Shown here: positions 5,344-34,210 of the stretch, piece by piece
Layout: every line of letters starts with the position of its first letter
Position numbering within the stretch: position 1 is the first letter of the stretch
Assembly: GCA_031290935.1 (NCBI GenBank)
Contig: JAISLK010000056.1
Span: 1 to 34,210, forward strand
Source of the DNA: Prevotellaceae bacterium
GTDB taxonomy: Bacteria; Bacteroidota; Bacteroidia; Bacteroidales; UBA932
Length of the DNA: 34,210 bases
Direction of reading: 5' to 3'
Notes under the pieces: model-generated
Seen by the model: only the letters and a program-made list of their open reading frames with translations
Database searches by the model: none
Told to the model about the DNA's origin: nothing
Position numbers and translations under genes: made by a program

Positions 5344-5417
5344 AATTCACGGTGCGCGTGTTGACCCGGTGGATGCGTCAGGGAACTTCTAACGCCTCCG
5401 CCGGTTTTATTCTCAAG

Positions 5418-5509
5418 CCTGCTTAAGAACGGCTCTTAACCCTGCTTAAGAACGGTTCTTAACCCTGCTTAAGAACGGTTCTTAAATCTGCTTAAGAACG
5501 GCGCTGTGT
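5418..5509 (+). repeat. 23-bp array with 17-bp inverted-repeat cores
   Basis: Four units of 23 bp start at 5418, 5441, 5464 and 5487. Each begins CCTGCTTAAGAACGG (TCTG in the last). Units 2 and 3 contain TTAAGAACGGTTCTTAA, a perfect inverted repeat of TTAAGAAC around a central G. Unit 1 has one change (GGCTCTTAA) and unit 4 loses the right arm. The regular 23-bp spacing is about two helical turns. It could be a cluster of protein-binding sites or a neutral minisatellite; it lies about 150 bp ahead of the proC promoter. Confidence 0.85.
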
Positions 5510-6492: not shown

Positions 6493-7230
6493 TCAGGAAG
6501 AAATTTGTTCGCCTGTTTTCCCGTAACGGCGTTCGCGGCGGTGGTACGCTTCCAGCGCGTCCCGGAAATGCTGTTTGGAAAAGTCCGGCCAGAGGGTTTT
6601 GGTAAAGTAAAATTCCGTGTAAGCCATTTGCCACAACATAAAATTACTGAGGCGCTGCTCGCCGCCCGTGCGGATAAGCAGGTCCGGCGGCGGCATACCG
6701 GCGGTGGACAAGTTTTCCTCCACGGCATCGGCAGTGATGCCGGTTACGGGCAGTTGCCCTTGCTGTACAGCGGCGGCGCACCGTTTGCAGGCTTCGATAA
6801 TATCCCATTTCCCGCTATAGCTTAATGCCAGCGTCAGCGTCATGGTAGCGCCGGCGGCGGTTTGGGCGATACATTGCTGCAATTTTTCCTGCACCGCCGC
6901 CGGCAGCAAATCAATGCAGCCGATGTACCGCAAGCGGATATTATTTTTAAGCAGCGTGGGCGTTTCCTTTTGTATCGCTTCCACCAAAAGTTCCATGAGC
7001 CCGTTCACTTCCGCTTGCGGGCGTTGCCAGTTTTCCTCGGAAAAAGTGTAAAGCGTTAAATAACGCACCCCTGTTTCGGCGGCTATTTCTACTGTTTCAC
7101 GCACTGCGCGGATAGCGTTCCGGTGCCCGAAAATACGGTTTTGCAACCGGCGTTTTGCCCAGCGGCCATTGCCGTCCATAATCACCGCCACATGCGCGGG
7201 AACAGTTGTAAGTCGTAAGCCAGCAGTCAT
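6493..7230 (-). CDS. uppS: Undecaprenyl diphosphate synthase UppS
   Basis: The 245-residue protein is a cis-prenyltransferase. It extends farnesyl diphosphate with isopentenyl units to undecaprenyl diphosphate, the lipid carrier for peptidoglycan and surface glycans. Motifs in order are IMDGNGRWAKRR (catalytic Asp19), a GHRNAIRAVRE helix, YTFSEENWQRP, and the C-terminal RTGGEQRLSNFMLWQMAYTE, which includes the usual metal and diphosphate residues. The start at 7230 is unusual: the ATG and the first codons (MTAGLRLTT) are made of the heptamer-like DNA at 7205-7270. The conserved part begins at about residue 11, so the first ten residues may be poorly constrained. It ends a minus-strand run after nadK and porG, as in Porphyromonas gingivalis, where porG also precedes uppS. 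Confidence 0.95.
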   Translation of the reverse strand: MTAGLRLTTVPAHVAVIMDGNGRWAKRRLQNRIFGHRNAIRAVRETVEIAAETGVRYLTLYTFSEENWQRPQAEVNGLMELLVEAIQKETPTLLKNNIRLRYIGCIDLLPAAVQEKLQQCIAQTAAGATMTLTLALSYSGKWDIIEACKRCAAAVQQGQLPVTGITADAVEENLSTAGMPPPDLLIRTGGEQRLSNFMLWQMAYTEFYFTKTLWPDFSKQHFRDALEAYHRRERRYGKTGEQISS

Positions 7231-7270
7231 AAGTTGTAAGTCTTTTTAGTCATAAGTTGCAAGTCATAAA
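7205..7270. repeat. Degenerate TAAGTCA-type heptamers at uppS start
   Basis: The plus strand shows repeated TTGTAAGTC, AGTCATAAG and GCAAGTCATAA blocks (on the minus strand, ACTTATG and ACTTACA units). Several units are exactly 7 bp. The run straddles the uppS start codon and supplies three ATGs on the minus strand, only one of which is the chosen start. Confidence 0.65.
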
Positions 7271-7271
7271 C

Positions 7272-7287
7272 GGGCTGGCGCCAGCCC
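7272..7287. repeat. 16-bp perfect palindrome
   Basis: GGGCTGGCGCCAGCCC is perfectly self-complementary. It lies between porG and uppS beside the heptamer run. Similar GGCGCC-centred inverted repeats lie beside other heptamer runs at 5606-5615 and 23907-23934. There is no adjoining T tract on either strand, so it is not a typical terminator. Confidence 0.6.
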
Positions 7288-7307
7288 ATATCACCACCTC
7301 AAAATGC

Positions 7308-23040: not shown

Positions 23041-23103
23041 CCTTTTACCCTTCCACCCTTCGCCCTTCCATCCTTTCACCCTTTCACCCTTTTACCCTTT
23101 TTA
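23041..23103 (+). repeat. Pyrimidine-rich ACCCTT tandem tract
   Basis: About eight imperfect 7-9 bp units of the type ACCCTTC, GCCCTTCC or ACCCTTTT lie between the deiminase and methyltransferase genes. Similar but shorter tracts lie at 18776-18796 and 23668-23697. Unit length varies, so replication slippage is likely. Confidence 0.6.
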
Positions 23104-23111
23104 CCCAAATT

Positions 23112-23134
23112 TATGACTTACGACTTACGACTTC
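23112..23134 (+). repeat. Heptamers covering the trmH start codon
   Basis: The run is ATGACTT, ACGACTT, ACGACTT from 23113. The start codon of the methyltransferase gene is the ATG of the first unit, and residues 1-7 (MTYDLRL) are encoded by these heptamers. Confidence 0.8.
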
Positions 23135-23643
23135 TACATACCAACCGCCTGACGCCGGAGCAATTCCGGCAGGCGGAAAAAATGCCGGTGGTACTGGTAT
23201 TGGACAATATACGCAGCCAGCATAATATCGGCGCGGCTTTCCGCACGGGCGACGCTTTCCGTATTGAAAAAATTATCCTCTGCGGCATCTGCGCCGTGCC
23301 GCCCAGCGCAGAAATACACAAGGCGGCGTTGGGCGCAGAAGATACCGTAACTTGGGAATATGCCGCCGACGCCGCCGACGCCCTCGCCGCTCTGCGCAGC
23401 AACGGCTATACGCCGGCGGCGGTGGAGCAAACAAAAGACAGTATCCCCTTACAGGAATTTATTCCGCACGAAAGAAAAAAGTATGCGCTGGTCTTCGGCA
23501 ATGAAGTCAAAGGCGTACAGCCGGCGGTGGTGGACGCCTGCGACTGCTGCATCGAAATCCCGCAAGCCGGCACCAAACATTCCCTCAACGTCAGCGTCAG
23601 CATCGGCATTGTGTTATGGCAATTTGCTAAAAAAAGATTTTGA
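23113..23643 (+). CDS. SpoU/TrmH-family RNA 2'-O-methyltransferase
   Basis: The 176-residue protein has the three SpoU motifs: motif 1 LDNIRSQHNIGAAFRTGDAF, motif 2 ALVFGNEVKGV and motif 3 IEIPQAGTKHSLNVSVSIGI. The family has a knotted fold and transfers methyl from S-adenosylmethionine to a ribose of tRNA or rRNA. The target here (tRNA Gm18, position 34 or rRNA) cannot be told. The first seven codons are made of heptamer repeat DNA, and the conserved part begins near residue 10 (TNRLTPEQFR). It follows the arginine deiminase gene by about 100 bases of pyrimidine-rich repeat. Confidence 0.9.
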   Translation: MTYDLRLLHTNRLTPEQFRQAEKMPVVLVLDNIRSQHNIGAAFRTGDAFRIEKIILCGICAVPPSAEIHKAALGAEDTVTWEYAADAADALAALRSNGYTPAAVEQTKDSIPLQEFIPHERKKYALVFGNEVKGVQPAVVDACDCCIEIPQAGTKHSLNVSVSIGIVLWQFAKKRF

Positions 23644-23768
23644 TGCGGCGATGCGGGCTGACGCCGAAACCCTTTACCCTTCTACCTTTCGCCTTGTGCC
23701 TTTCTGCTTGCAGACGAACCATTATACATCCATTGTTTTCACAGTTTAAAAAAATATTCCACTCGCCC

Positions 23769-23873
23769 GGAAAACATTTCCGGACAATAGAAAAACATTT
23801 CCGGACAATCGGAAAACATTTCCGGACAATAGAAAATCTTTTCCGGATAATCGGAAAAGTTTCCCGATTGATA
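23769..23873 (+). repeat. 21-bp degenerate array, five units
   Basis: Five 21-bp units start at 23769, 23790, 23811, 23832 and 23853. The first three are nearly identical (GGAAAACATTTCCGGACAAT plus A or C). Units 4 and 5 drift (AATCTTTTCCGGATAAT; AAAGTTTCCCGATTGAT). Each unit contains the inverted repeat GGAAA-ACA-TTTCC and the palindrome TCCGGA. Confidence 0.85.
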
Positions 23874-33980: not shown

Positions 33981-34210
33981 TTCGACACTAAGAAGCAAAT
34001 GTTCGACACTAAGAAGCAAATGTTTGACACCAAGAAGCAAATGTTCGACACTAAGAAGCAAATGTTCGGCACTAAGAAGCAAATGTTCGACACTAAGAAG
34101 CAAATGTTCGGCACTAAGAAGCAAATGTTCGACACTAAGAAGCAAATGTTCGACACTAAGAAGCAAATGTTCGACACTAAGAAGCAAATGTTCGACACTA
34201 AGAAGCAAAT
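33981..34210 (+). repeat. 21-bp tandem array, at least 11 units, running off the window
   Basis: Eleven head-to-tail 21-bp units begin at 33981; the last is cut by the window end. The main unit starts TTCGACACTAAG and ends AAGCAAATG. Unit 3 (34023) differs at two positions (TTTGACACC) and units 5 and 7 at one (TTCGGCAC); the others are identical. Two frames on each strand stay open because the unit is 7 codons long, so the open frames do not show that it is coding. No spacers occur, so it is not a CRISPR array. Confidence 0.95.

Follow-up and report, generated by a model that had tools for sequence, protein, structure and literature searches.

The trmH-like gene at positions 23113-23643 (plus strand) of the window, the 34,210-nucleotide stretch of DNA analysed here, begins inside a short tandem array of a degenerate heptamer, (RACTTAY)n, which codes for its first seven residues, MTYDLRL. 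Other members of the genus retain a different, native start at this gene, and array-coded N-termini recur at several conserved genes and in several species. From sequence comparison we consider it probable that dispersed (RACTTAY)n repeats filled intergenic DNA, reached translation starts and at some loci replaced the native starts and N-termini.

The heptamer array at the start of the trmH-like gene

The window reads ATGACTT at 23113-23119 and ACGACTT at 23120-23126 and 23127-23133, which agrees with the first-pass annotation, where the methyltransferase was said to begin at the ATG of the first of three such units. Fitted to the consensus with at most two mismatches (L011), the array spans 23108-23135 on the plus strand and comprises four RACTTAY-type units, AATTTAT, GACTTAC, GACTTAC and GACTTCT; the putative start codon (23113-23115, plus strand) is formed where units 1 and 2 join. 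TRF reported the array at 23111-23133 with period 7 and 3.3 copies. Directly 5′ of it lies a degenerate octamer array of the CCTTTCAC type (23041-23101, plus strand), found by TRF at 23041-23100 and by the array scan at 23064-23101, both with period 8. The 14-mer ATGACTTACGACTT, allowing up to two mismatches, has five matches in the window compared with 0.10 expected from shuffled sequences (largest shuffle, 2). Two of the five are the trmH-like array, and three lie in the leader of uppS (7210-7267, minus strand). This comparison and that of the intergenic array periods given below rule out a chance origin of the arrays.

The product of the trmH-like gene matches SpoU_methylase (PF00588, E 5.7e-35) from residue 26, and the conserved part of the protein extends from codon 11 (23143). 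Among NCBIfam models, TIGR00186 (RlmB) scores best but stays under its cut-off, and none of the 10 listed models reached its cut-off for this gene. The label 'trmH-like' therefore holds at the level of the superfamily, as a SpoU-family RNA 2'-O-methyltransferase, and no further.

Loss of the native trmH start

Orthologues of the gene were sought in 59 genomes, its own (G000) included, and 30 loci were read, 7 within the genus and 23 outside it. The genus is represented by nine genomes, G000 to G008, one per species; G007 and G008 have no close trmH orthologue and were omitted from the trmH count. A native start, ATG-AAC-CGY (MNRKLLNSELNRL), is kept in four of the seven genomes (G002, G003, G004 and G005). 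The native N-terminus of the orthologues, M-x-RKLLNSELNRL, is absent from G000, which has MTYDLRLLHTNRL in its place. At the position of the native ATG, G001 has TTG and G006 has ATA, and in G006 the open frame extends 5′ through a CCGACTR array up to another ATG. Outside the genus, RK falls within the first six residues from M at 20 of the 23 loci (counted by eye). Together with the four native starts in the genus, this suggests that the native N-terminus is old and was lost in G000. The array ATG of G000 stands 12 codons before NRL, the same distance as the native ATG, so the ATG itself is possibly native and the codons after it overwritten by the array.

The arrays at the trmH start vary by congener, with the ACTTACG type in G000, ATGAACG in G003, AGAAATA in G004 and CCGACTR in G006. 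In G002, an ACTTACG-type array lies just 5′ of the native ATG, and no array was found beside the start in G005. The ATGAACG-type word of G003 occurs in the leaders of both trmH (L017) and pnuC (L101), where several ATGs in different frames stand just 5′ of the gene; AUG near starts is reported to be underrepresented in Bacteroidetes (PMC6847099).

uppS and other genes that start in the word

The uppS gene (6493-7230, minus strand) starts at an ATG at 7230 in the same word and has the N-terminus MTAGLRLTT; degenerate heptamer units occupy its leader and first codons (7204-7267, minus strand). The parallel between the two genes that had been drawn earlier was thus confirmed, with uppS as the degenerate case. 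A GC-rich palindrome, GGGCTGGCGCCAGCCC (7272-7287), adjoins the leader array. Two ATGs in the leader, at 7289 and 7253, each begin a short frame that ends in a TGA overlapping the uppS start codon (7230), an arrangement that might permit re-initiation. The native uppS start, MP(x)2-3PEKIP[TA]HVAV, is present in four of eight genomes (G003, G005, G006 and G008), no orthologue of uppS or ubiD having been obtained from G007. Array-derived N-termini are found in G000 (MTAGLRLTTVPAHVAV) and G002 (MTYDLQLTAIPSHVAV) and in a G001 frame with MTHDSRLTTHDSQLATK; in G004 the start abuts an array, MTNPLHVAV following immediately 3′ of AGAAATC units. As a control, the neighbouring gene porG, with an array-free start, aligns from residue 1 in seven of eight genomes.

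In five of the nine ACTTACG-word arrays of G000, an ATG marks the beginning of a coding frame. The resulting N-termini are MTYDLRL (trmH-like), MTYDSRLTT (ubiD), MTYDLQL (M20 peptidase), MTYGLQL (pnuC) and MTYNLRLTT (DUF3108), and the degenerate uppS is a sixth gene beginning in the word. Two further arrays sit at gene ends, those of a SPOR-domain gene (L007) and a lysyl-type tRNA synthetase (L009). An aldehyde dehydrogenase gene beside the C6 arrays (L003, MTIYHF) has a word-like start stretch, failed the donor test described below and was left uncounted.

For ubiD, the native start MKSL..YI.A.E is kept in four of eight genomes, the same four as for uppS. Array-made starts occur in G001 (MTHDLRLTT) and G002 (MTYDLRLKT) as well as in G000, and G004 has an in-frame ATG inside an AACAAATGAAC-type array. 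Orthologues of the M20 peptidase, DUF3108 and pnuC genes have array-like N-termini from several words, differing by species; the M20 peptidase has no close orthologue in G003 or G008, and pnuC is partial or distant in G001, G004 and G008. The M20 peptidase orthologues of G001 and G002 (L082, L083) carry in-frame stops in the match (one TAA; one TGA and one TAA). A PseudoU_synth_2 gene of G001 begins with MTYDFLYEDNH inside an array. Both checks suggested by the first-pass annotation, a search of the genome for further N-termini like MTYDLRL and an alignment with orthologues for loss of the native start, were therefore positive, and the orthologues do not share the first codons.

The word across the genus

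Matches to RACTTAYRACTTAYRACTT number 9 in G000, 3 in G001, 6 in G002, 138 in G004 and 225 in G007, with none in G003, G005, G006 and G008; the reversed control pattern gave 4 matches in the whole genus. The units of G004 (n = 128) vary almost solely at the junction of Y and R, that is, at ACG/ATG/ACA, with G in 86 and A in 41 at position 1 and C in 89, T in 23 and A in 15 at position 7 (A mostly in last units). The arrays also share their ends: the last unit is RACTAAN in at least 16 of 23 G004 arrays and GACTAAN in 10 of 11 G007 arrays, and a GC-rich left flank, TGCGCYTGYCGC, precedes at least 14 of the 23 in G004.

These distributions bear on an explanation that involves no spread, in which slippage produced local duplications at each start that are alike through base composition and a polymerase preference for 7-nt units. 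Among long simple repeats, heptamers are the most frequent class in many genomes, and a form of slippage linked to the polymerase footprint has been put forward (Mrazek 2007, cited in PMC4679880 and PMC4692102). The occurrence of the word in many phyla also fits such an origin, as does the resemblance of the ATGAACG unit in the G003 trmH array to the native start ATGAACCG. However, the common last unit and left flank, and the absence of any match in four congeners against the high counts in two others, speak for dispersal, and we regard purely local slippage as rather unlikely. The earlier proposal that the repeat spreads into gene starts and donates start codons stands in substance for donation, with native starts lost at several genes; the spread is what the dispersal of the word and its presence or absence among congeners suggest.

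We scored an array as a donor when an ATG within it begins a coding frame no shorter than 50 codons. G004 was sampled in 20 stretches, the first places among the matches listed (about 100 of 138), and G007 in 9 stretches. Donors made up 5 of 9 arrays in G000, 2 of 4 in G002, 1 of 2 in G001, 1 of 23 in the G004 sample and 0 of 11 in the G007 sample. The array-poor genomes G000, G001 and G002 together have 8 donors in 15 arrays compared with 1 in 34 for the sampled array-rich G004 and G007 (Fisher p 1.1e-4). The single G004 donor (L143, MAKIKFKD) is probably a native start, since G000 also has MAKIKFKD. We interpret the donor excess as survival, with the word dying out and the copies that had turned into starts remaining; a different pace of domestication could also produce such counts.

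The site of initiation

Between the upstream stop and codon 24 of the trmH-like gene, the only in-frame ATG, GTG or TTG is the ATG at 23113. The next in-frame ATG is codon 24 (23182), and an in-frame CTG precedes it at 23149. The array could be a mere leader, with the true start either at ATG 23182, just before the SpoU domain, or at a rare non-ATG codon, for instance the CTG, and nothing donated. ATG 23182 is in frame and close to the beginning of the Pfam match, and the leader ends with AAATTT, placing at -3 an unfavourable T, the rarest base there in the genome (0.13 of 174 ATG genes); A is reported to be favoured at -3 in Bacteroidetes (PMC6847099). Residues 11-23 (NRLTPEQFRQAEK), however, are kept in orthologues. 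Their codons differ from those of G001 by three synonymous and no nonsynonymous changes, and from those of G002 by three synonymous and two nonsynonymous changes. The synonymous-only change relative to G001, with no start codon between the array and codon 11, fits translation from 5′ of codon 11. In uppS, the conserved HVAVIMDGNG block leaves no space for a later start. We consider a downstream start improbable and infer that translation of the trmH-like gene initiates at the array ATG.

Arrays in the surrounding genome

A survey of G000, a draft assembly that is 63% complete in 78 contigs, covered 353,785 bases in 21 stretches with 274 genes (simple gene calls of our own, not a trained annotation). 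Intergenic arrays of period 7, 8 and 14 numbered 26, 12 and 8, compared with 0.0, 0.2 and 0.0 in dinucleotide shuffles, so that dispersed intergenic heptamer tandem repeats, in the broad sense, occur at many loci above chance. A lower threshold gave 62 arrays (period 7, 8, 14 or 16), of which 14 contain a predicted stop and 4 a predicted start; two of the four (L119 at 19186, and L120) are doubtful because a GTG start was chosen mechanically. The fraction covered by arrays is 0.056 for the 15 bases preceding starts, 0.013 for the 15 following them and 0.104 for the 15 following stops. Arrays cover stop codons more often than starts, and the low coverage at starts relative to stops suggests that arrays encroach on gene borders in general, with start donation as the fringe of this process. 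What had been claimed for one repeat type has to be widened, as several words of 7-8 nt act alike, and qualified, as most arrays reach no start (4 of 62 do here, and 1 of 34 in G004 and G007). Since other words behave alike, nothing appears to be special to ACTTACG.

The window also holds longer tandem repeats: a 21-nt unit, TTCGACACTAAGAAGCAAATG, in 11 copies at 33981-34210, reaching the contig end; an intergenic 23-nt unit in 4 copies at 5411-5502; and an intergenic 21/42-nt unit in 4.2 copies at 23768-23858.

The positions of the arrays bear on whether they are under selection for a translational or regulatory role, as has been suggested for TAACTGA repeats, with overlap of the first codons as part of that function. 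Many arrays do end with RACTAAA just before a gene start. However, the same gene has other words or none in congeners, as seen for trmH and uppS, and most of the 62 surveyed arrays lie at stops or far from starts, which makes a regulatory role a decidedly improbable explanation. An assembly or binning artefact, which the incomplete and fragmented draft might invite, is hardly credible, as array-made uppS and ubiD starts recur in separately assembled congeners and similar ones occur in named records of other groups.

Occurrence beyond the genus

At the level of the order, the pattern was found in 23 of 393 genomes, G000 included, which rules out confinement to the genus; two distant genomes of the order, G102 and G036, have 388 and 18 matches. 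The reversed control pattern (TTCARYA repeats) matches 44 of the 393 by our own count of rows, exceeding the pattern itself. This control corresponds to another array word, ATTCATA, which is also present in G000 (L122). It is therefore not neutral, and the word studied here is one of several common ones.

A cross-phylum scan with a 26-base form, covering 84,980 species with one genome each, returned at least 117 stretches from many phyla. Among the matches listed, 10 of 123 arrays include an ATG whose frame continues for 100 codons or more past the array, and all 10 candidate donors come from metagenome-assembled genomes, judging by record titles. The Pfam check covered eight of them, L185 and L270 being omitted because they look like spurious ORFs, and all eight match a family. 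Examples are an Asp/Glu racemase from a record of Chitinophagaceae (MTYDLRLTTYETGFIGVFDSGYGG), a protein of the PseudoU_synth_2 family from one of Bacteroidia, an esterase whose N-terminus resembles that of a lipoprotein from one of Prevotellaceae, and a DUF2269 protein from a gammaproteobacterium. There are thus apparent start donors outside the genus, in Chitinophagaceae, Prevotellaceae and gammaproteobacteria.

Architecture and possible origin of the arrays

In G004 the arrays form mosaics, in which an array of another word is followed by a GC-rich linker (often GGCTNACGCC..TGCGCTTGYCGC), a RACTTAY array, RACTAAA, and lastly either a gene or one more word array. In G000, a GGCTGGCGCC linker is bordered by arrays of several words, in some cases as inverted pairs. 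Terminal inverted repeats or target duplications, the marks of mobile elements of the MITE, BOX or RPE type, were not established. A word array followed by an inverted-word array within about 100 bases was seen at four loci (L110:7733-7825, L121:3521-3650, L126:4649-4742 and L113:10237-10304), two of which surround the GGCTGGCGCC linker and may be composite or foldback elements. In G007 (L148, L151, L152, L154), a hairpin-like stretch of the AAGAACTGCCGGTAAGGAAACTTGCCGGCGGTTCTTTTT type recurs 3′ of the RACTTAY array, which makes for a longer dispersed unit.

Several candidate sources were considered and set aside. A GC palindrome is present at some arrays only and is not a common core of them all; GC palindromes are found at 1.24 per kb in intergenic and 0.72 per kb in coding DNA, and many belong to other repeats. 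There was no sign of mismatch-repair loss driving slippage, as MutS_V has two matches in each of the nine genus genomes. Spread driven by a RAYT was rejected, with Y1_Tnp (PF01797) in only two of the nine; in the 63% of G000 that is assembled this transposase was not found.

A more speculative proposal, which we hold to be doubtful, is that a dedicated repeat-adding or mobile activity writes the intergenic DNA of this genus as blocks of 7- to 8-nt words, which differ by species and have fixed boundaries (GC-rich linker, array, RACTAAA). Such blocks, in which every ACTTACG unit needs a single transition to yield ATG and all frames are open, would be nurseries of translation starts, where conserved genes keep swapping native starts and N-termini for array-made ones and might switch frame when units are gained or lost.

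Discussion

The replacement of native starts that we favour could have proceeded in a few steps. The 7-nt tandem repeat (RACTTAY)n would have dispersed through the intergenic DNA of part of the genus, and at some loci its arrays would have reached translation starts. In the sense direction ACTTACG units are free of stop codons whatever the frame, and because 7 is not a multiple of 3, all frames of the array read one cycle, TYDLRLT. Each unit holds ACG, a single C-to-T transition from ATG. Such a transition may have made the unit an ATG that, if in frame with the gene, could serve as its start. Bacteroidetes are described as being without Shine-Dalgarno sequences (PMC6847099), which we take as a permissive condition, as a new ATG would be usable without a ribosome-binding site. 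The native start would then turn dispensable and be lost, with array-coded N-termini such as MTYDLRL remaining. An array used as a start could no longer be deleted, so donor arrays would be retained by selection and outlast their siblings.

In phase-variable simple sequence repeats, a tract whose unit is not a multiple of three lies at the 5′ end of a reading frame. The arrays described here share the 5′ position and the non-triplet unit, but only two to three degenerate units follow the ATG, and the genes are housekeeping genes.

Among dispersed heptamers, TAACTGA direct repeats have been described in marine Beggiatoaceae, some Cyanobacteria and five Bacteroidetes (MacGregor 2015, PMC4679880). 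They too are 7-nt tandem units that are mostly intergenic, often end right before a start codon, overlap gene ends and are patchy across phyla, and spread is suspected there as well (PMC4679880). RACTTAY and its reverse complement do not equal TAACTGA in any register. In TAACTGA arrays each of the three forward frames contains stops, so that in the forward sense they overlap only the ends of upstream genes (PMC4679880), whereas the word studied here has open frames in sense and provides an ATG and first codons. All-frame stops were not seen here; solely the ATG-containing units give a TGA, in one frame, as in the uppS leader. Several words coexist in these genomes, whereas related heptamers are reported to be rare as repeats in the TAACTGA study (PMC4679880).

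The GGGAATC arrays of Xanthomonas and GGGGA(C/T)T arrays of Nostoc resemble the present ones as 7-nt arrays near gene borders that vary among related genomes and in some cases lie over stop codons; unlike them, they are G-rich and form G-quadruplexes, and the account in PMC4692102 describes stop overlap rather than start donation. Pneumococcal BOX elements are dispersed modular repeats that overlap coding sequences, providing stop codons in 36 of 58 overlapping CDSs and the start codon in three ORFs (PMC3049150). They are longer composite elements, and the starts reported for BOX belong to small ORFs similar only to hypothetical proteins, not to conserved housekeeping genes with a lost native start (PMC3049150). 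Rickettsia palindromic elements also enter conserved genes in frame and alter the protein, but as insertions of about 150 bp into ORFs, not as 7-nt arrays at the start codon (PMC10969869).

A literature search that reached few subscription papers found no prior report of heptamer arrays replacing the native starts of conserved genes. That dispersed repeats can overlap the ends of genes and provide stop codons is established. In the present case a simple heptamer seems to have contributed the start codon and initial residues to conserved genes, uppS among them, on repeated occasions and in several lineages. N-termini such as MTYDLRL can arise in this way, in which case they carry no homology signal and should be read with caution, and a unit gained or lost after the array ATG would shift the reading frame. 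With these arrays, how translation starts arise and are replaced becomes open to testing in a phylum without Shine-Dalgarno sequences.
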